From the NCBI GenBank assembly GCA_025963965.1, contig JAOPZS010000093.1, forward strand, positions 1 through 35,726: a DNA stretch of 35,726 bases, read 5' to 3'. This DNA comes from Solirubrobacterales bacterium (GTDB taxonomy: Bacteria > Actinomycetota > Thermoleophilia > Solirubrobacterales > Solirubrobacteraceae). Shown here in pieces: positions 4,177-13,972 of the stretch. The number at the start of each line of letters is the position of its first letter. Positions within the stretch are counted from its first letter, which is position 1. The notes beneath the pieces were generated by a model. The model was not told where the DNA came from, searched no databases, and was given only the letters and a program-made list of their open reading frames with translations. The position numbers and the translations under genes are program-made.

Positions 4177-5400
4177 TCAAACCCCTCTGGGCACGCCCTT
4201 CGGGGCGGCCAGCCTTGCCGTGCCATCGTAGATCGCCAGCGTGCGCTGGGCGATGTCGTCCCAGTCGAAGCTCAGCACGTGCTCTGAGGCTTCCGCCACC
4301 AGCCGGTCGCGCAGCGCCTCGTCGACGAGCAGCCGTTCCATCATCACGCCGAGGTGCTCCGCGTCGCCGCCGTTGAAGCGCAGCCCGACCCGCTCCCCCC
4401 GGGGCACGACCTCCCGCAGCCCGCCCGTGTCGGCCACTATGCAGGGGCAGCCCGACGCCATCGCCTCGAGGGCGACCAGGCCGAACGGCTCATAGATCGA
4501 AGGCACGACGCACAGGTCGGCGATCCGGTAGAGCGAGTGCAGCACGTCGTCCCCGATCCAACCGAGGAACGTTCCGTGCTCCGACAGCCCGAGCTGCTGC
4601 GCCTGCTGCTTGAGCTCGGCCTCGTGCGTGCCGCTGCCGGCCACCAGGAAGCGCACGTTGCCGACCTGCTCGATCAGACGCGGCATCGCGTCGAGCGCGA
4701 GCTGGAAGCCCTTCTCGTAGACCAGCCTGCCGACCAGCAGCACCAGCCGCTCCTGTGGCGCGGCGAACTTGCTGCGCAGCGCCTCGAGGTCCTCGATCGG
4801 ACGCAGGTCGCTCGGATCGACGCCGTTCGGGATCACCGTCACGCGGCTCTCGTCGATGTCGAACACGTCGGCGACGTGGCCGCGCATGTAGTAGGAGCAG
4901 ACGATCACGCGATCCGCCCGTTGCGCCATCCATCGCTCGACCGAGTGGATGTGCGACTGCGGCGGGTTGGCCACCCAGCCCTGATGGCGGCCGTGCTCGG
5001 TGGCGTGGATCGTCGTCACGTACGGGATCCCCAGGCGGTCTGAGAGCGCCCCGGCGGCGCTCGCCACGAGCCAGTCGTGGCCGTGGATCAAGTCGTAGGA
5101 GTGCTCCAGCGCGAGTGCCTCGCCGGCGGCGAGCATGTCCTCGTTCATCTGCTCGACCCACGCCACGAACCGGTCGAGGTCCCGCGGCCAGCCCGGCTCG
5201 GGCACGCGGTGTACCTCCACGCCCCCCGGGCGCAGCGCCGTGGATGCCGGCTGGGGAGCGTCGGCGGCTCCCCGCGTCAGCACGTCGACCGCGAGTCCTT
5301 GGCGAACCAGGCCCTCGGCGAGCTTGCGAACGTGGCGCGCGAGACCGCCCTCGATCACGGGGGGATACTCCCAGGAGAGGACGAGCACGCGGTCGCTCAC
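4177..5400 (-). CDS. GT4-family glycosyltransferase (glycogen-synthase-like fold)
   Basis: A 407-aa GT-B retaining glycosyltransferase. The N-terminal domain starts with the glycogen-synthase-like signature SWEYPPVIEGGLARHV and contains HGHDW; the C-terminal GT4 domain has LVGRLVYEKG and the EX7E motif in EPFGLVALEA, which binds the nucleotide sugar. There is no membrane segment. It most resembles actinobacterial glycogen synthases/GlgA-like or mannosyl/glucosyltransferases; donor and acceptor cannot be fixed. I choose the GTG at 5400 because TAGGGT sits exactly 7 nt upstream with no ribosome binding site, the leaderless pattern seen repeatedly here. A GTG at 5409 is the alternative. Confidence 0.85.
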   Translation of the reverse strand: MSDRVLVLSWEYPPVIEGGLARHVRKLAEGLVRQGLAVDVLTRGAADAPQPASTALRPGGVEVHRVPEPGWPRDLDRFVAWVEQMNEDMLAAGEALALEHSYDLIHGHDWLVASAAGALSDRLGIPYVTTIHATEHGRHQGWVANPPQSHIHSVERWMAQRADRVIVCSYYMRGHVADVFDIDESRVTVIPNGVDPSDLRPIEDLEALRSKFAAPQERLVLLVGRLVYEKGFQLALDAMPRLIEQVGNVRFLVAGSGTHEAELKQQAQQLGLSEHGTFLGWIGDDVLHSLYRIADLCVVPSIYEPFGLVALEAMASGCPCIVADTGGLREVVPRGERVGLRFNGGDAEHLGVMMERLLVDEALRDRLVAEASEHVLSFDWDDIAQRTLAIYDGTARLAAPKGVPRGV

Positions 5401-5485
5401 GCCAGGCACCCTATCTCCCGCGGCAGGTACGCCCTGTCTAGCCTTTTGTCAGCCCTCCGACATCGCGATGCGCCATGATCGGCCC

Positions 5486-6494: not shown

Positions 6495-6872
6495 GTGCGG
6501 TGGCTCATCGACGGCATGAACGTGATCGGCACGCGGCCGGACGCCTGGTGGAGGGACCGCCATCGCGCGATGGTGCTCCTCGTCGACCGGCTCGAGCGCT
6601 GGTCGGCCTCGACCGGCGAGGACGTGACGGTCGTCTTCGAGCAGCCGCCCGTGCCGCCGATCCGCTCGAGCGTGATCGTCGTCGCGCACGCGCCGAGGCC
6701 CCGCCGGGACTCGGCCGACGACGAGATCATCCGGCTGCTCGCCGCCGAGTCCGAGCCGGGGGCCGTGAGGGTCGTCACGTCCGACGGCTGGCTTTCCGAC
6801 CGGGTGCGCGCGAGCGGCGCCACCGTCGAGCCCGCCGCACCCTTCCGGGCCCAGATGGAAGCGGAGCTGTGA
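6495..6872 (+). CDS. NYN-domain (YacP-like) predicted RNase
   Basis: A 125-aa single-domain PIN/NYN-fold protein. Strand 1 carries the acidic residue and Asn of LIDGMNVIG, a central segment reads DSADDEIIRLL, and the last conserved acid lies in VVTSDGWLSDRV; these match the metal-binding residues of YacP/Rae1-type nucleases, which cleave mRNA or rRNA. The GTG at 6495 follows TACGCT by 6 nt with no ribosome binding site, so a leaderless message is likely. Its stop overlaps the next start (GTGA), coupling it to the cyclase fusion. The RNA target is unknown. Confidence 0.75.
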   Translation: MRWLIDGMNVIGTRPDAWWRDRHRAMVLLVDRLERWSASTGEDVTVVFEQPPVPPIRSSVIVVAHAPRPRRDSADDEIIRLLAAESEPGAVRVVTSDGWLSDRVRASGATVEPAAPFRAQMEAEL

Positions 6873-8275
6873 TTCCCGAAACCCATTACGCCCGCAGCGG
6901 CGATGCCAGCATCGCCTACCAGGTCGTCGGCGAAGGCGGCCTCGACCTGATGTTCCTGACGGGCTGGATCACGCAGATCGAGCACCTCTGGGAGGCGCCG
7001 GCGAATCAACGCTTCCTCGAACGGCTCGCCGCGTTCGGCCGGCTGATCCTGTACGACAGCCGAGGCACCGGCCTCTCCGAGCGGGTGCTCGACTCCTACA
7101 CGGTCGAGCAGGAGGTCGAGGACGCGCTGGCCGTGCTCGACGCCGCCGGCAGCGAACGCGCGGCCGTGCTGACCTACGCGCTGGGTGGTCTCGTCGGCGC
7201 GCACCTCGCGGCCGAGCACCCCGAGCGAATCGGCGCGCTGGTGATGTACGCCTCGGCGGCCCGAACGTCCTGGGCGCCCGATTACGACTGGGCGATGACC
7301 GTCGAGGAGCGCGAGGCGCTTGCCGAGCGAAACATCGCGACCTGGGGGGAAGTCAACGCCGAGGCGATGGCCGCATGGGCGCCTTCGATGGCCAGCGACC
7401 CGTCGCTTGTCGCGTGGTTCGCCCGCATGCAGCGGCTCGCCGCGAGCCCGACCGAGGCGCGCGTGATCTCCCGCGCGATGACCGACCTCGATGTCCGCCA
7501 CCTGCTGCCCCGCATCCGCGTGCCGACACTCGTCATGCACCGCCCCCAAGAGAAAGTCTGGGACGTGCGCCACTCGCGCTACCTCGCCGAGAACATCCCC
7601 GGCGCGCGCTACGTCGAGCTCGACGGCGAGGACTCCTTCCCGTTCGTCGGGGACAGCGACGCGATCGCCGAGGAGATCGAGGAGTTCCTGACCGGCGGAC
7701 GTCGTGGCGGCGAGCTCGAACGCGCGCTGTTGACCGTCATGTTCACCGACATCGTCAACGCGACGGCACGGGCCGCTGAGCTGGGCGACGGGCGCTGGCG
7801 AGACCTGCTCCACCGCCACGACGAGACCGTGCGCCGGCAGCTGGCGCGCTTCGACGGGCGCGAGGTCAAGACCGTCGGCGACGGCTTCCTCGCGACATTC
7901 GACGGCCCGCCCTCCCGCGCGCTGCGATGCGCGCTGGCGATCACCGCCGCCACGCGTGAGCTCGGCATAGAGGTGCGGGTGGGCGTCCACACCGGCGAGT
8001 GCGAGCTGATCGGTGATGACGTCGGTGGCATGGCCGTGCACATCGCCTCGCGCGTCGGCGCGCTGGCTGCGCCCGCCGAGGTGCTCGTATCCGGGACCGT
8101 CTACGGGACCGTCGTCGGCGGCCCGTTCGAGTTCACCGACCGCGGCTTGCATCAGCTCAAGGGGGTGCCCGGCCCGTGGCCGCTGTTCTCGCTCGGAGCT
8201 CGTCCCTCGGCAGCCTCCGCAGCGGCGCCCGGCGCGGACCCCGCCAAGCCGGCTCCCGCCGAGAAGATCTCGTGA
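6869..8275 (+). CDS. Degenerate alpha/beta hydrolase fused to class III adenylate/guanylate cyclase
   Basis: A 468-aa two-domain protein. Residues ~5-277 are an alpha/beta-hydrolase fold in which the nucleophile elbow GxSxG reads TYALGG (Ala104) and the position of the catalytic His reads DS (Ser256), so both essential residues appear lost and the domain is probably a ligand sensor. Residues ~285-440 are a class III nucleotide cyclase with metal-binding Asp294 (FTDIV) and Asp338 (VGDGF), the substrate Lys in EVKT and Arg395; the usual Asn of the VNxAxR motif is His391, a frequent actinobacterial variant. It should make cAMP or cGMP. The Ala/Pro-rich tail is low complexity. GTG start overlaps the NYN stop; its own stop overlaps the next GTG. 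Confidence 0.85.
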   Translation: MIPETHYARSGDASIAYQVVGEGGLDLMFLTGWITQIEHLWEAPANQRFLERLAAFGRLILYDSRGTGLSERVLDSYTVEQEVEDALAVLDAAGSERAAVLTYALGGLVGAHLAAEHPERIGALVMYASAARTSWAPDYDWAMTVEEREALAERNIATWGEVNAEAMAAWAPSMASDPSLVAWFARMQRLAASPTEARVISRAMTDLDVRHLLPRIRVPTLVMHRPQEKVWDVRHSRYLAENIPGARYVELDGEDSFPFVGDSDAIAEEIEEFLTGGRRGGELERALLTVMFTDIVNATARAAELGDGRWRDLLHRHDETVRRQLARFDGREVKTVGDGFLATFDGPPSRALRCALAITAATRELGIEVRVGVHTGECELIGDDVGGMAVHIASRVGALAAPAEVLVSGTVYGTVVGGPFEFTDRGLHQLKGVPGPWPLFSLGARPSAASAAAPGADPAKPAPAEKIS

Positions 8276-8521: not shown

Positions 8522-8550
8522 TTGACCGATCACATCGCCTCACCTAAAGT
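8522..8550 (+). promoter_or_regulatory. Sigma-70-type promoter of the chorismate-lyase operon
   Basis: TTGACC (8522-8527) is followed after exactly 17 nt by TAAAGT (8545-8550). This is the best housekeeping-type promoter in the window. It points at the chorismate-lyase-like gene starting at 8601 and predicts a transcript start near 8557. Confidence 0.7.
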
Positions 8551-8554
8551 CCTC

Positions 8555-8573
8555 GTAAGCGCTCTGTAAGCGC
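8555..8573 (+). repeat. Direct repeat with 11-nt period at the predicted start of transcription
   Basis: GTAAGCGC occurs at 8555-8562 and again at 8566-8573, so two copies lie one helical turn apart on the same face. They cover the predicted transcription start of the promoter at 8522-8550 and end 27 nt before the ATG at 8601. The placement suits a repressor that binds direct repeats, for example an OmpR/PhoP-type or MerR-unlike regulator; no regulator gene is adjacent. Confidence 0.5.
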
Positions 8574-8600
8574 CGGGCCACGGATGGACGAGAGGACGAC

Positions 8601-9209
8601 ATGATCGCCGACCGACTCGCAGCCCGACACTTCACCGCGCAGGCAGAGCTGCCGGCCGATCTCGAGACGATCGAGCTCGGCGCGCTGGACGCCTTCCTGC
8701 GGAACCTGCTCGTGACCGACGGCACCGTCTCACGCTCACTGGAAGCCCACACGCTGCGCCCGGTCACGGTCGAGCCGGTCGAGCAGTCCGAAACGCTCCC
8801 ACCGGCACCCGTCGCGCGCCACCTGCGCCTCGATCAGGACGAAGCGTGCATGCGCCGCCGTGTCGTGATGCGGATACATGGCTCCGAGCCGTCGGTCTGG
8901 GCCGAGTCCTTCGTCGTGCCGGGACGGGTGCCGGTCGAGTTCCTGCGCGAGCTCAACGAGAACAGCCGCGGCATCGGCGGCTCACTCGAGCGGCTGAAGC
9001 TCGAGAGCTGGCGCGAGCTGCTGTGGTTCGGTCTCGGCACCCCCCCGCCCTGGCCGGCGAAGAGCGCCACGACGAGGACGCTCCGTCGCGCCTACCTGAT
9101 CCTGATCGAGCGACGCCCGGCGCTGCTGATCGCCGAGGACTTCGCCCTGACCGAGCGCAACGGGGCCTTGGCGATGGCTGGAGCCGACGAGGAGGGTCCC
9201 GCCCGATGA
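8601..9209 (+). CDS. Chorismate lyase-like protein (DUF98/UbiC-type)
   Basis: A 202-aa protein with the pattern of the DUF98 chorismate-lyase family: LDAFLRNLLVTDGTVSRSLEA near residues 29-49, then RRRVVMRIHG and WAESFVVP around residues 93-113, where the Glu matches the acidic residue that contacts the substrate in the family. Such enzymes eliminate pyruvate from chorismate to give 4-hydroxybenzoate; the mycobacterial example Rv2949c works with the ligase-carrier FadD22. The ATG at 8601 has GAGAGGA ~6 nt upstream and a strong promoter at 8522-8550. Its stop overlaps the next start (ATGA), so it is coupled to the aryl ligase-carrier-acyltransferase protein, which strongly supports the assignment. 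UTRA-type regulators share the fold, but no helix-turn-helix is present. Confidence 0.75.
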   Translation: MIADRLAARHFTAQAELPADLETIELGALDAFLRNLLVTDGTVSRSLEAHTLRPVTVEPVEQSETLPPAPVARHLRLDQDEACMRRRVVMRIHGSEPSVWAESFVVPGRVPVEFLRELNENSRGIGGSLERLKLESWRELLWFGLGTPPPWPAKSATTRTLRRAYLILIERRPALLIAEDFALTERNGALAMAGADEEGPAR

Positions 9210-12082
9210 GCGTTCACCCGGCCGAGCAGGCCGCGCAGAACGCCAACGCGAGCCTCGTCCTCGATCGCCGATTGGAGGCCGGTGGCGGGGATTCTCCCGC
9301 CTACGTGAGCGACCGGATGTCGCTGAGCTACGCAGAGCTGCTGCGAGAGGTCGCGCGCATGGGGAACCTGCTGCGGGCGATCGGCGTGCGCCGGGAAGAG
9401 CGCGTGCTGCTCGTGCTCGACGACACGCCCCTGTTCCCCGCCGCCTTCATCGGGGCGATGCGAATCGGAGCGGTTCCCGTGCCCGTCAGCGTCCGCGAGC
9501 ACGGCGAGAACTTCCGCCACTTCATCGAGGACTGCTACGCACGCGTCGTCGTCTGCGAGGAGCCGTTGCTGGCTCCGCTGCGCGCGTCGCTCGCGGGCCT
9601 CGACGTGCGCTTCCTGACCTACGGAGGGCCCGACGGAGACCCGGCGGTGCTCGACCTCGGCACCGCCCTGGCCGAGCAGGAGGACGAGTGCGAAGCCGTC
9701 CCGACGCATCCGGACGACATGGCCTTCTGGCTGTACACATCCGGCTCGACCGGCCGCCCCAAGGGCGTCGTCCACCTGCACAAATCGATCGCGGCGGTCT
9801 GCGAGAGCTTCGGACGCGAGATCTTCGAGCTGACCGCCGAGGACCGGGTGTTCTCGACGACCAAGCTCTACCACTCCTACGGCCTCGGCAACAGCTTCGC
9901 CTACCCCCTGTACTTCGGAGCCAGCGCCGTCCTGCTCGAGGGCACCCCGGCGCCCGAGCGGCTGCTCGACGCGCTGCGCAGGCACCGGCCCACGGTGCTC
10001 TGCTCGGTCCCCGCCCTCTACCGCCAGCTCGTCGACGACCCCGACACCGACGGTGCCCTGGACTCCGTGCGCATCTGCATCTCCGCCGCCGAGCCGCTGC
10101 CGGTCGGAACGTTCGAGCGCTGGCGCGATCGCTTCGGCATGGAGATCCTCGACGGCATCGGCGCCACCGAGATGTTCGTCACGTTCTGCTCGAACCGGCT
10201 CGGCGACGTCGCGCCGGGCACGACAGGCCGCGCCGTCCCCGGATACGAGCTGCGGCTGCTCGACGAGCTGGGCGCGGAGGTGCCGGGCGAGGGCGAGGGC
10301 GCGCTGCAGGTCCGCGGCGCCTCGCGCGCGGCGCACTACTGGCATCAGCAGGAGCGCACACGCGTGTCGATGCCCGGCGAGTGGCTGACGACCGGGGACC
10401 GCTTCCGGCGCCGCGAGGACGGCCGCTACGTCTACGTGGGCCGAAGCGACGACATGCTCAAGGTCGGCGGACTGTGGGTGTCGCCGATCGACATGGAGCT
10501 GGCAATCTCAGAACACGCCGGCGTCAGCGGCGTCGCGGTGGTCGGAGCGCGGATCGACGACTACATGCGCCTCGCCGCGTTCGTCGAGGCGGCACCGGAC
10601 GCCGGAGACGCACAGCAGCTGACCGACGAGCTCCGCGAGCTCTGCCGCGAGCGGCTGCGCGAGCACGAACAGCCGCATCTGATCCGCTTCGTCGACGCCC
10701 TGCCGCGGACGGTCAACGGCAAGCCGCGCCGCTTCATGCTGCGTGCGCAGATCGAGCAGGAGCTGGGCGAGCTGGCGAGCGCGGCCGATCGCGCCGCGGA
10801 GGGGATCGGCTCCGGTGCCGGCGATCAAGCCCGGCCGGTCGCGGGCCTCGGCCAGCTGGACCCGGCCGAGCGCGAGCGCGCGCTGCTCGAGCTGATCGGA
10901 GGCGAGACCGCGACGCTGCTCGGACTCGCGTCGGCGGCGATCGACCCGTCCCGCAGCTTCGCGCAGCTCGGTGTCGACTCGCTGATGGCGGTCGAGCTGC
11001 GCAACCGGATCGCCGCCGCGAGCGGCCTGCGGATCGCATCGACGCTCGTCTTCGACCACCCCACTCCTGTCGCGGCGGCGCGAGCGCTGAGCGCCGAAGC
11101 CGAAGGCCGCGCGGCGCCCGCCGCCGAGCTCTCGGCGGCGGAGCTGGCCGCGCTGGCGGAGCTCGACGCCGGGCCGGGCCGGACTCGCATGCCCGGCGGG
11201 TCCCTCGGGTTCCGCCTGAAGAGCTCGGCGGTGTTGAACGCGCTGGTGCCCGCCCGCGTCGCGGTCAGGCGCGCGATGGGTCTCGCGCCGGCCCTCTGGG
11301 AGCTCGACGAGGAGGACCGCGAGCAGTCTTGCAAGGCGATCGCCGCCGTCGTCGCCGACACGGTGCGGGCGGACGAGCAGGAGCAGCTCGCCAAGGCGCA
11401 CCTCGCCGAGGCCCTCGCCTACCGGGCGCTCTTCTGGCAGCGACCCTGGACCGCCCGGATCGACCCCGACTCGAGCCGGCGCATCGACCAGGCGCTGGCG
11501 AGTGGCCGTGGAGTGCTGCTGAGCGCCTGTCACATCGGCCCCTACCAGCGACTCGATCGCGTGGCCCCGTTCCGCCGCAGGCGCACCTACCTGGTCCCCG
11601 GCGCGTGGTACTTCGAGCGACCGTCGCCGGGGCAGTGGGGTCGGCGTCTGGCGCGCTGGCGCAAAGCGACGAAGAGCCTCCCGGTGCGTGCGAGCGGCTC
11701 CTTTCGGATCGTCCAGGCGCTGCTCGAACGCGGCGAGGCCGTGTTCCTGTTCTTCGATCTGCCCGGGCCGCGCCAGACCCGCTTCCTCGGCAAGCCGGCG
11801 ATGCTCGCGGATGGCACAGCGCAGCTCAGCGTGCGCACCGGCGCCCTCGTCCTGCCGCTGCGCGCGCGGCGCGAGGGCCATCACGCGCACGTGCAGGCGG
11901 CGCCGGCGATCGACCCCCGGGACCTCGACGGCGTCGATCAGCTGCACGCTCGGCTCGCCGAGATCCACGCGGCGTGGATTCTCGAGAACCCGGCTGCGAT
12001 GGAGGACCCTCGCGAGGTCGGATGGGGCGACGGCGCGACCGCCGAGGCATGGATAGCGCCGGTGCCGGCGAGGGGCGACTGA
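9206..12082 (+). CDS. Aryl-AMP ligase / acyl carrier / LpxL-type acyltransferase fusion
   Basis: A 958-aa three-domain protein. Residues ~25-515 form an adenylation domain of the benzoate/4-hydroxybenzoate group (YTSGSTGRPKG 177-187, YHSYGLGN 222-229, ILDGIGATE 314-322, GDxxRR near 398, A10 Lys506); these motifs closely recall mycobacterial FadD22. Residues ~548-630 are a carrier domain with phosphopantetheine site Ser592 in GVDSLMAVELRNR. Residues ~700-935 are an LPLAT/HtrB-PatA-like acyltransferase (GRGVLLSACHIGPY, FFDLPG, ADGTAQLSVRTGA). The usual HX4D/E motif reads HIGPYQ, so the acid at His776+5 is Gln. Predicted role: activate 4-hydroxybenzoate (or a relative), load it on Ser592 and pass it to a lipid or glycolipid. 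ATG overlaps the chorismate-lyase stop; the PPTase at 13292 should supply the prosthetic group. Confidence 0.85.
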   Translation: MSVHPAEQAAQNANASLVLDRRLEAGGGDSPAYVSDRMSLSYAELLREVARMGNLLRAIGVRREERVLLVLDDTPLFPAAFIGAMRIGAVPVPVSVREHGENFRHFIEDCYARVVVCEEPLLAPLRASLAGLDVRFLTYGGPDGDPAVLDLGTALAEQEDECEAVPTHPDDMAFWLYTSGSTGRPKGVVHLHKSIAAVCESFGREIFELTAEDRVFSTTKLYHSYGLGNSFAYPLYFGASAVLLEGTPAPERLLDALRRHRPTVLCSVPALYRQLVDDPDTDGALDSVRICISAAEPLPVGTFERWRDRFGMEILDGIGATEMFVTFCSNRLGDVAPGTTGRAVPGYELRLLDELGAEVPGEGEGALQVRGASRAAHYWHQQERTRVSMPGEWLTTGDRFRRREDGRYVYVGRSDDMLKVGGLWVSPIDMELAISEHAGVSGVAVVGARIDDYMRLAAFVEAAPDAGDAQQLTDELRELCRERLREHEQPHLIRFVDALPRTVNGKPRRFMLRAQIEQELGELASAADRAAEGIGSGAGDQARPVAGLGQLDPAERERALLELIGGETATLLGLASAAIDPSRSFAQLGVDSLMAVELRNRIAAASGLRIASTLVFDHPTPVAAARALSAEAEGRAAPAAELSAAELAALAELDAGPGRTRMPGGSLGFRLKSSAVLNALVPARVAVRRAMGLAPALWELDEEDREQSCKAIAAVVADTVRADEQEQLAKAHLAEALAYRALFWQRPWTARIDPDSSRRIDQALASGRGVLLSACHIGPYQRLDRVAPFRRRRTYLVPGAWYFERPSPGQWGRRLARWRKATKSLPVRASGSFRIVQALLERGEAVFLFFDLPGPRQTRFLGKPAMLADGTAQLSVRTGALVLPLRARREGHHAHVQAAPAIDPRDLDGVDQLHARLAEIHAAWILENPAAMEDPREVGWGDGATAEAWIAPVPARGD

Positions 12083-12091
12083 GCGGGCTGC

Positions 12092-13267
12092 TCAGAAGTC
12101 AGGCGCCGCCGGCAGGCCTGCGTAGTTCTCCGCGAGGCTCGTGGCCGCCGCGCGCGATCGCGACAGGTGCTCGAGCCGCGCGAGCTGCAGGCGCCGCTGG
12201 AACGGGCCGCCTCCGAGATCGTGCAGCAGGTTGGTCATGTAGTTGGAGAAGTCCTGTACCTGCCAAACACGCCGCAGGGCCGCAGTCGAGTAGCCCGCCA
12301 GGCCAGCCTCCTCGCCGCTCGAGTACCAGGCCCCCAGCGCCGCCGACAGCAGGCGCGCATCATTGACAGCCAGGTTGAGGCCCTTCGCGCCGGTCGGCGG
12401 GACGATGTGTGCGGCATCGCCGAGCAGGAACAGGCGTCCATGGCGAAGCGGCTCGCAGACGAAGCTGCGCATCGGTGTCACGCCCCTGTCGATCACCGGC
12501 CCTTCCCCCACCCGCCATCCGTCGGAGGCGAGGCGGGCTTGCAGCTCCGCCCAGATTCGCTCGTCGGACCAGTCCTCGATCCGCTCGTCGCTCGGAACCT
12601 GCAGGTAGAGACGGCTGATCGTCGGGGAGCGCATCGAGTAGAGCGCGAAGCCCCGGTCGTGCCAGCCATAGATCAGCTCGTCGGTCGTGGGCGCGGCTTG
12701 CGCGAGGATGCCCAGCCACGCGAACGGATAGACGTACTCGTGCTCGGTCAGTGCGCCGGCCGGCACAGATGCCCGGCAGACGCCGTGAAAGCCGTCGCAG
12801 CCTGCGATCACGTCGCACTGCAGCTCGGCGCTCTGCCCGTCCTGCTCGAAGGAGATCCGTGGACGCTCGCCGTCGTAGTCGTGCAGGCGCGTGCCTGTGA
12901 CGCCGAAACGGATCTCCCCTCCCCGCTCCAGGCGCGCGGCGATCAGGTCCTTGAGGAGCTCCTGCTGGCCGTAGATCGTGATCCGCCGTCCGGTGAGCCC
13001 GGTGATGTCGACCCGCTCGGTCGCGCCGGGGCGGCGCAGGTAGATGCCCTCGTGCACCAGTCCCTCGCGCGCCATCCGCTCTCCCACGCCGAGCTCGTGC
13101 ATCAACTCGACGGTGTTCTGCTCGAGCAGCCCGGCTCGCACGCGCTGCTCGACGTGCTCGCGCGAGCGGCACTCGATCACGACCGACTCGACGCCGGCCC
13201 TTTCGAGCATCAGCGCGAGCATCAACCCGGCCGGCCCCGCCCCGACGATGCCGACCTGCGTTCTCAC
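12092..13267 (-). CDS. pobA: 4-hydroxybenzoate 3-monooxygenase
   Basis: A 391-aa class A flavoprotein hydroxylase that converts 4-hydroxybenzoate to protocatechuate with NADPH and oxygen. Hallmarks are the FAD loop GIVGAGPAG at residues 6-14, RVRAGLLEQ, the AGCDGFHG segment, the substrate-binding RSPTISRLY region equivalent to the Ser/Arg/Tyr cluster of Pseudomonas PobA, and GDAAHIVPPTGAKGLNLA. I choose the GTG at 13267: it gives an N-terminus MRTQVGIVGAGPAG that lines up with known PobA and sits 7 nt after TAATAT. An ATG at 13276 overlaps that box. It converges on the aryl ligase gene with 9 nt between, and no protocatechuate ring-cleavage genes are nearby. Confidence 0.92.
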   Translation of the reverse strand: MRTQVGIVGAGPAGLMLALMLERAGVESVVIECRSREHVEQRVRAGLLEQNTVELMHELGVGERMAREGLVHEGIYLRRPGATERVDITGLTGRRITIYGQQELLKDLIAARLERGGEIRFGVTGTRLHDYDGERPRISFEQDGQSAELQCDVIAGCDGFHGVCRASVPAGALTEHEYVYPFAWLGILAQAAPTTDELIYGWHDRGFALYSMRSPTISRLYLQVPSDERIEDWSDERIWAELQARLASDGWRVGEGPVIDRGVTPMRSFVCEPLRHGRLFLLGDAAHIVPPTGAKGLNLAVNDARLLSAALGAWYSSGEEAGLAGYSTAALRRVWQVQDFSNYMTNLLHDLGGGPFQRRLQLARLEHLSRSRAAATSLAENYAGLPAAPDF

Positions 13268-13274
13268 GGCGCAC

Positions 13275-13284
13275 ATATTAATCT
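13275..13284. promoter_or_regulatory. Overlapping back-to-back -10 boxes for pobA and the PPTase gene
   Basis: The minus strand reads TAATAT (13280-13275), 7 nt before the pobA GTG. The plus strand reads TAATCT (13279-13284), 7 nt before the PPTase GTG. The two boxes overlap by 2 nt in an AT-rich island inside a 24-nt intergenic gap. Both messages would therefore start at or next to their start codons. Confidence 0.6.
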
Positions 13285-13291
13285 GCCGGGC

Positions 13292-13972
13292 GTGGGCGGC
13301 CCGGCGAGAGCCCTTCAGGCGATCCTCCCGGCGGGTGCCGTCGCGGCGGAGATCGAAGATGACGGTGCCGCGGCCGATCCCTCGGCAGGCCTGTTTCCCG
13401 AGGAGCGCTCGGCGGTCGAGGACGCCAGCGACTCGCGGCGCCGGGAGTTCGCCGGCGGCAGGGCCTGCGCGCGCTCAGCGCTCGCGATGCTCGGGATCTC
13501 ACCGGTGGCGCTGCCCGTGCTGGAGGACGGCGCCCCGGCGTGGCCCGCCGGCGTCCTCGGCAGCATCACGCACAAGGGCAACTACAGGGCCGCTGTGGTG
13601 GCGCCGGCCGCTGAGCTTGCGGCGCTCGGTCTGGACGCGGAGCTGGACGATGGCCTTGCGGCGGGCGTCCTCGACAGCGTCGCGTTGCCCGCCGAGCTCG
13701 ATCTCATCGAAACCCTGCTCTCTCGGCACCCCGGACCTGCCTGGGACCGCCTGCTCTTCAGCGCCAAGGAGGCGGCCGTCAAGGCCGCCCTCGCCCTCGG
13801 TCGTGGGCGCCCTGAGCTGCGGGCGACCGAAATCGCGCTGGATCGGGCCGGGACGTTCCAGGCCCGCGTGGCCTTGACGGCAGGGGGACGGCCGCCCCTG
13901 CCCCCCCTCGAGGGCCGCTGGCTGGCACAGCGCGGGATGCTGATCGCCGTCGCCACGATTCGCCGGCTGTGA
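13292..13972 (+). CDS. 4'-phosphopantetheinyl transferase (EntD/Sfp type)
   Basis: A 226-aa transferase that moves phosphopantetheine from CoA to a carrier-protein serine. Visible motifs are FPEERSAV, the basic helix RRREFAGGRACAR, GSITHKGNYRAAVVA (the family's S-x-T-H-x-x-G region), LGLDAE with the magnesium-binding acid, and FSAKEAAVKA, the catalytic WxxKEAxxK-like helix. The pattern is EntD-like. The GTG at 13292 is chosen for its position 7 nt after TAATCT; the open frame upstream is a shadow of pobA. It is the natural activator of the carrier domain in the 958-aa protein at 9206-12082. Confidence 0.88.
   Translation: MGGPARALQAILPAGAVAAEIEDDGAAADPSAGLFPEERSAVEDASDSRRREFAGGRACARSALAMLGISPVALPVLEDGAPAWPAGVLGSITHKGNYRAAVVAPAAELAALGLDAELDDGLAAGVLDSVALPAELDLIETLLSRHPGPAWDRLLFSAKEAAVKAALALGRGRPELRATEIALDRAGTFQARVALTAGGRPPLPPLEGRWLAQRGMLIAVATIRRL

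Follow-up and report, generated by a model that had tools for sequence, protein, structure and literature searches.

In mycobacteria, a chorismate lyase of the Rv2949c type supplies a route to phenolic glycolipids in which the ligase FadD22 hands an aryl group to a polyketide synthase (PKS). In the Escherichia coli aryl polyene (ape) cluster, ApeH loads 4-hydroxybenzoate directly onto an acyl carrier protein (ACP), and the predicted lysophospholipid acyltransferase (LPLAT) ApeD has been proposed to anchor the product (PMC8253772). Other LPLAT-family enzymes act on sugar hydroxyls, such as PatA (PMC4792965) and VexE, which uses ACP-bound donors (PMC9597891), and fusions of fatty acyl-AMP ligase (FAAL)-like domains with LPLATs are mentioned in one sentence of the consulted part of a further paper (PMC8460268). 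Here we describe a related locus in a contig of a soil actinobacterium of the Solirubrobacterales (JAOPZS010000093.1, assembly GCA_025963965.1; the whole analysed stretch of 35,726 nucleotides is called the window). In it, a chorismate lyase-like gene precedes a gene whose product joins aryl ligase, carrier and LPLAT-family acyltransferase, with pobA and a phosphopantetheinyl transferase (PPTase) gene alongside. We put the chance at slightly better than even, roughly 55%, that the carrier takes up 4-hydroxybenzoate or protocatechuate, which is then passed directly to a hydroxyl acceptor. The features are as follows.

8601..9209, plus strand: Rv2949c-like chorismate lyase, predicted source of 4-hydroxybenzoate (ATG start, 202 aa, PF01947)
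9206..12082, plus strand: ligase-carrier-acyltransferase fusion, 958 aa (Pfam, NCBIfam, counterpart in a second genome, G002)
9284..10723, plus strand: adenylation (A) domain of benzoate-CoA ligase type, AMP-binding plus C-terminal subdomain (Pfam, TIGR02262, tree)
10910..11089, plus strand: PP-binding carrier domain with GVDSL motif; Ser592 is the expected phosphopantetheine site
11240..11995, plus strand: LpxL/PatA-like acyltransferase domain with His776, Glu804, Asp851 and Gln781 (Lip_A_acyltrans, alignments)
12092..13276, minus strand: PobA, p-hydroxybenzoate 3-hydroxylase, 394 aa (FAD_binding_3, NF006091)
13292..13972, plus strand: Sfp/PptT-type PPTase, proposed activator of the carrier (GTG start, assumed; 4PPT_N, ACPS)

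A sequence-only reading of this DNA had placed the four genes here, and every domain indeed matches Pfam above its curated cut-off. In the fusion, the order is that proposed for an aryl-adenylation domain, a carrier and an LpxL/PatA-like acyltransferase: AMP-binding (residues 27-379), AMP-binding_C (430-506), PP-binding (569-628) and Lip_A_acyltrans (679-930). The predicted translational coupling is likewise seen, the fusion ATG at 9206 overlapping the lyase stop codon as ATGA. The fusion and the adjoining pobA converge with 9 bases between their ends, and the PPTase gene diverges from pobA.

The window's genome (G000) is a 147-contig assembly that is about 90% complete. We found the fusion in one further genome, G002, a Solirubrobacteraceae metagenome-assembled genome (MAG) by its record title, on contig JADGPL010000005.1 (identical to the G002 locus across 17,822 shared bases). 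G002 keeps the window's order lyase-fusion-pobA with frames open throughout, at protein identities of 54.5% for the lyase, 62.7% for the fusion and 75.4% for PobA. The two fusions are 63% identical over 947 aligned codons, and all three of their domains are conserved at 62-67%. Third codon positions differ by 54.5, 46.7 and 40.4% in lyase, fusion and pobA, and second positions by 29.2, 20.9 and 12.4%. Gene order, open frames and this excess of third- over second-position differences together indicate that the three-gene cassette is more than chance. No further called window gene matches the G002 region, save for one distant ligase match; lyase, fusion and pobA have stayed linked in two genomes amid otherwise unrelated flanks.

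Among the genus genomes searched, the cassette is confined to G000 and G002. The fusion itself was found in 2 of 24 genus genomes; of 61 near genomes, these two alone give near-full-length matches to it among those listed. A carrier-acyltransferase query matched 25 of 399 class genomes and was covered in full in these two. Scanning GTDB with two peptide patterns gave 40 pattern matches and a single relative, JADGPL010000005.1; the patterns are narrow, so divergent fusions could be missed. The search for this domain order across genomes thus returned one further bearer, and the patterns found no wider spread. A candidate in G387, listed with an open frame of 1692, was rejected: its own frame has 459 codons, with a 392-aa open reading frame that matches neither ligase nor carrier. 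Pfam detected no ligase or carrier in the acyltransferase frames of G004 (C127), G006, G003 (C12) and G341, and no family whatsoever in that of G004. None of 117 plasmid records covered 80% of the query, the 15 listed matches being carrier-sized.

The A domain belongs to the aryl-ligase type. It scores 477 bits against TIGR02262, the benzoate-CoA ligase family (499 in G002, cut-off 375.25), and K506 in the motif NGKPRR is presumably its catalytic lysine. The sequence-only reading had called the domain a FadD22-like aryl-adenylation domain; the aryl-ligase type stands, whereas descent from FadD22 does not. Against the FadD22 equivalog PRK06060 it reaches 262.7 bits for a cut-off of 1228, compared with 1315.8 bits for the FadD22 of genome G546. 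In a maximum-likelihood tree of 18 ligase rows, both fusion A domains group with same-order ligases of G052 and G035 (100/99), and two FadD22-like rows of G546, one of them the confirmed FadD22, fall outside this group. The fusion A domains share 49-52% identity with these catabolic ligases, compared with 31-34% for FadD22. Genes beside the G052 and G035 ligases include an aldehyde dehydrogenase and an enoyl-CoA hydratase, joined in G052 by a PaaX-type regulator and a catechol dioxygenase (PF00775). Score and tree together rule out FadD22 membership, and the A domain represents a separate lineage. As it groups with catabolic ligases and not with FadD22, its likeness to the mycobacterial pathway is convergent, and the arrangement of a lyase with an aryl ligase-carrier protein arose separately from the mycobacterial one.

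The sequence-only reading also called for a comparison of the substrate pocket. We considered the two positions that follow TEM-x or its equivalent, which are V325 and T326 in the window fusion. The pair is Val-Thr in this fusion, Val-Ser in that of G002 and Gln-Thr in FadD22. It reads His-Ile in two benzoate ligase structures (2v7b, 4eat), in that of an anthranilate ligase (4wv3) and in both catabolic relatives. Two further benzoate ligase entries, 6m2o and 6m2u, carry Ala-Ala; because their alignments otherwise read like 4eat, they are presumably engineered variants. The fusions thus match neither the benzoate ligase nor the FadD22 pair and have Thr or Ser where FadD22 has Thr. Such a departure from the benzoate pair, towards a small hydroxyl side chain like that of FadD22, would fit a hydroxylated substrate.

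Such a substrate may be provided by the first gene of the cassette. The lyase scores 48.7 bits against PF01947 (cut-off 22), and Pfam reports no further family in it, DNA-binding or otherwise; against the cyanobacterial equivalog NF037993 it reaches just 22.3 bits (cut-off 175). It aligns with the solved family member 2nwi; R86, R138 and E179 are common to both, are invariant in four aligned sequences, and presumably correspond to the UbiC residues R76/E155. Given the family score, the lack of another domain and the residues shared with 2nwi, a UTRA-type sensor is not favoured for this 202-aa protein, and its assignment as chorismate lyase-like, as first proposed, appears sound. Four of 399 class genomes contain this gene family: the fusion bearers G000 and G002, which are 2 of the 17 genus genomes within that sample, and two genomes from a different taxonomic family. 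In the phylum, it occurs in 5 of 396 genomes, G000 included. In G455 (L113, 4339-6140), a weak lyase-family match of 22.4 bits, for the same cut-off of 22, overlaps a gene 27% identical to PobA, perhaps another pairing of lyase and hydroxylase.

Over about 62 residues, the carrier shares 59-61% identity with plasmid-borne sequences, and 10 of the 15 matches listed are annotated as type I PKS. G000 contains two PP-binding matches, the fusion carrier and one in a 93-aa frame. The PPTase scores 87.2 bits against 4PPT_N in Pfam. It had been described as EntD-type, yet the PptT and Npt models score higher (131.9 and 133.6 bits, compared with 31.6 for EntD; none reaches its cut-off), and the best-matching solved structures are those of PptII/PptT-type enzymes. 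Five of 24 genus genomes have a 4PPT_N match above cut-off; the contigs that bear the PPTase in G016 and G019 also hold carrier matches in frames of more than 1300 residues.

We compared the acyltransferase domain with characterized enzymes of its family. It matches PF03279 at 29.4 bits in the full protein and 33.8 bits as a domain alone (cut-off 22.3), as do 8 of 12 aligned family members at E 0.01. A profile built from the 12 members retrieves, among solved chains, three PatA and two lipid A acyltransferase sequences below 0.01 (E 1.2e-4 to 1.1e-3). In PatA, the catalytic pair is H126-E200, the HX4D residue D131 appears structural, and E149 and R164 have been modelled as contacts of the mannose acceptor, according to the consulted part of PMC4792965. 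The catalytic-type His, His776 in the fusion, is present in all 22 distinct acyltransferase rows, as is an Asp (Asp851) in the segment aligned with FDLPGP. A Glu aligns with PatA E149 in 18 of 22 rows; at the position of R164 both fusions have Arg, and the family as a whole varies. The acid position of the H-X4-D/E motif is taken by Gln781 in the fusion.

Stand-alone relatives of this domain point to its acceptor. There are 12 such copies in the genus, 41-48% identical to the fusion domain; they lack the HX4D acid and mostly have HxGP. When selected neighbours were tested, a glycosyltransferase was found to adjoin 9 of the 12 (in L035, L036, L037, L040, L041, L044 and L045, and two in L039). 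For the remaining three, the neighbours tested, two of three in L038, two in L042 and one in L043, included no glycosyltransferase. The copies in L035 and L041 also have Wzz-like genes nearby, those in L035 and L044 flippase-like genes, and that in L035 an epimerase gene. This context suggests a sugar acceptor for the family. With 9 of 12 of its kin next to glycosyltransferases, a sugar or glycolipid would be the better guess for the fusion as well, a hint by kinship since no gene tested adjoining the fusion is a glycosyltransferase. More distant acyltransferases of the family in G284 (C1, 1156950-1175220), G344 (C206) and G033 (C9) lie a few to some 20 kb from very large carrier-matching frames, which suggests that LPLATs off-load polyketides elsewhere in this bacterial family.

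From these assignments, a direct route can be proposed. By family, the lyase would turn chorismate into 4-hydroxybenzoate, part or all of which PobA could hydroxylate to protocatechuate in a biosynthetic role. The PPTase would place phosphopantetheine on Ser592, and the A domain, again by family, would adenylate the hydroxybenzoate and load the carrier in cis. The acyltransferase may then esterify a hydroxyl of a glycolipid or polysaccharide precursor directly with the carrier-bound aryl group, with no polyketide extension in between. We further suggest, tentatively and at somewhat less than even odds, that this defines a new class of aryl-ester envelope glycolipid or polysaccharide. One polypeptide would activate, carry and transfer a hydroxybenzoyl or protocatechuoyl group. 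Its parts would derive from a catabolic benzoate-type ligase, a carrier of PKS type and an acyltransferase of sugars, joined without ancestry in FadD22, and PobA would have been recruited from degradation to biosynthesis.

Several observations weigh against direct transfer. An Asp or Glu five residues after the His occurs in none of the 22 acyltransferase rows; as PatA D131 appears structural and D131A keeps 37% of activity in the consulted part of PMC4792965, loss of this acid alone does not predict an inactive enzyme. The profile alignment pairs the invariant Asp with PatA D202 and not with the catalytic E200, so the His-Asp dyad of the fusion is an unproven candidate and its catalysis a prediction. 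PatA, LpxL and VexE take fatty acyl donors, and the aryl donor of the fusion domain is putative. The nearest glycosyltransferase among the window genes tested lies at 4180-5409, and the G002 flanking genes tested contain only a PMT-like gene, 2.6 kb beyond the fusion. The cassette is carried by two genomes only, one a MAG and the other incomplete. The sequence-only reading had counted the PPTase with the other genes; G002, the only relative found, links the lyase, fusion and pobA but has no 4PPT_N match, so the window PPTase is not part of the kept set. Two weak PF00109 matches in G000 and two strong ketosynthase matches on another contig of G002 also have to be accounted for, and are considered below.

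Which acid is loaded depends on the role of PobA. The enzyme scores 566.5 bits against the subfamily model NF006091 (cut-off 351) and 497.7 bits against the stricter equivalog TIGR02360, below its cut-off of 538.7; its best solved relative is 7on9, a 4-hydroxybenzoate 3-monooxygenase. At an identity of at least 76% it is found in 2 of 24 genus genomes, G000 and G002, and eleven more have weak, often partial matches of 24-40%. PobA is normally catabolic, and pobA is convergent with the lyase-fusion unit and lies outside it. It is possible, though the less probable case, that PobA provides an overflow or removal route while the A domain uses 4-hydroxybenzoate itself, which would be compatible with direct transfer. 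Searches confined, among ring-cleavage families, to intradiol dioxygenases (PF00775) and LigB (PF02900) found neither in G002 or in the about 90% complete G000; each search gave matches in 4 of 14 control genomes. There is therefore no obvious onward degradation of protocatechuate. Since G052 does have PF00775 beside its ligase, this favours a biosynthetic PobA and a protocatechuoyl product. In G002, a PF01596 O-methyltransferase (L032, 14202-14942) lies next to pobA at the place of the window's PPTase. We regard it as a weak candidate for a step from protocatechuate to vanillate: sequences 54-70% identical to it over long stretches are present in 12 of the 23 remaining genomes of the genus, G000 among them, with a short fragment in G014, and with relatives so widespread the neighbourhood may be accidental. 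Before the lyase, positions 6500-8275 of the window hold a single open frame with an alpha/beta hydrolase and a guanylate/adenylate cyclase domain.

Alternatively, the aryl group could serve as a starter for a PKS or fatty acid system in trans, as with FadD22, with the fused acyltransferase moving the finished chain to a lipid. A PF01947 lyase in G546 has as neighbours the true FadD22 and a large frame that includes a carrier of PKS type, the window carrier is PKS-like as well, and G002 has strong ketosynthase matches of 231 and 198 bits in PKS-sized frames, besides three weak ones. The PF00109 matches of G000, however, cover short parts of the profile at 22.8 and 20.1 bits (cut-off 20.8) and are putatively read as thiolase-like, and no PKS-strength ketosynthase was found in this about 90% complete genome, in line with the absence of a polyketide step proposed from the sequence alone. 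No ketosynthase is present among the locus genes tested in either genome, and the carrier is fused straight to the acyltransferase, favouring transfer of what the A domain has loaded. We consider a starter role unlikely. Ketosynthase matches of FabF or fatty acid synthase strength were seen in neither G000 nor G002, for which genome incompleteness may be part of the explanation.

Less probable still is that a protocatechuoyl conjugate acts as a catechol iron ligand, an amphiphilic siderophore whose ester or amide bond the acyltransferase would form, much as 3,4-dihydroxybenzoyl units are loaded in petrobactin synthesis. PobA would be required for such a catechol; its gene is linked and, among 24 genus genomes, confined to the same two, and the two ring-cleavage families searched are missing; yet no gene for siderophore export, uptake or nonribosomal peptide condensation was found among the window and G002 flanking genes tested. 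Ordinary aromatic catabolism by a benzoate-CoA ligase with accidental fusion partners, suggested by the genes beside the nearest A domains, is very improbable, as none of those genes is among the locus genes tested, the lyase would make the substrate from chorismate, and all three fusion domains have been kept in both genomes.

Direct aryl transfer by the fusion thus has partial precedents. The Rv2949c-FadD22 route shares a PF01947 lyase near an aryl A domain fused to a carrier, as seen in G546; FadD22 lacks an acyltransferase and has an A domain of another lineage with a different pocket, and the cassette adds PobA. The aryl polyene pathway shares aryl loading on an ACP and the proposed LPLAT anchoring, but in the consulted part of PMC8253772 these are separate proteins, without a fusion, and ketosynthases build the polyene before transfer. 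PatA and VexE act on sugar hydroxyls, but with fatty acyl donors in trans and no fused ligase or carrier in the parts consulted (PMC4792965, PMC9597891), and PatA keeps HX4D. The FAAL-LPLAT fusions join an adenylating ligase to an LPLAT, but use fatty-acyl ligases, and no aryl ligase, chorismate lyase or pobA is described in the consulted part of PMC8460268. The original statement that no such three-domain fusion has been described therefore needs qualifying for ligase-LPLAT fusions, and holds, within the literature searched, for the exact combination. The open-licence literature searched gave no account of the lyase-ligase-carrier-acyltransferase set, of a benzoate-ligase-carrier-LPLAT fusion or of Solirubrobacter hydroxybenzoyl glycolipids, and no study of chorismate pyruvate-lyase that names Rv2949c. 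As far as these searches go, novelty lies in the combination, in its convergent origin and in the link with PobA.

If direct transfer is correct, the PKS machinery of phenolic glycolipids and aryl polyenes would be dispensable for decorating surfaces with hydroxybenzoate, one three-domain enzyme being enough. This would constitute a second, convergent origin of chorismate-fed aryl loading and provide a small enzyme on which aryl transfer to sugars or lipids can be tested directly. It would also offer a lead to the function of the PatA-like acyltransferases that adjoin glycosyltransferases in these bacteria.

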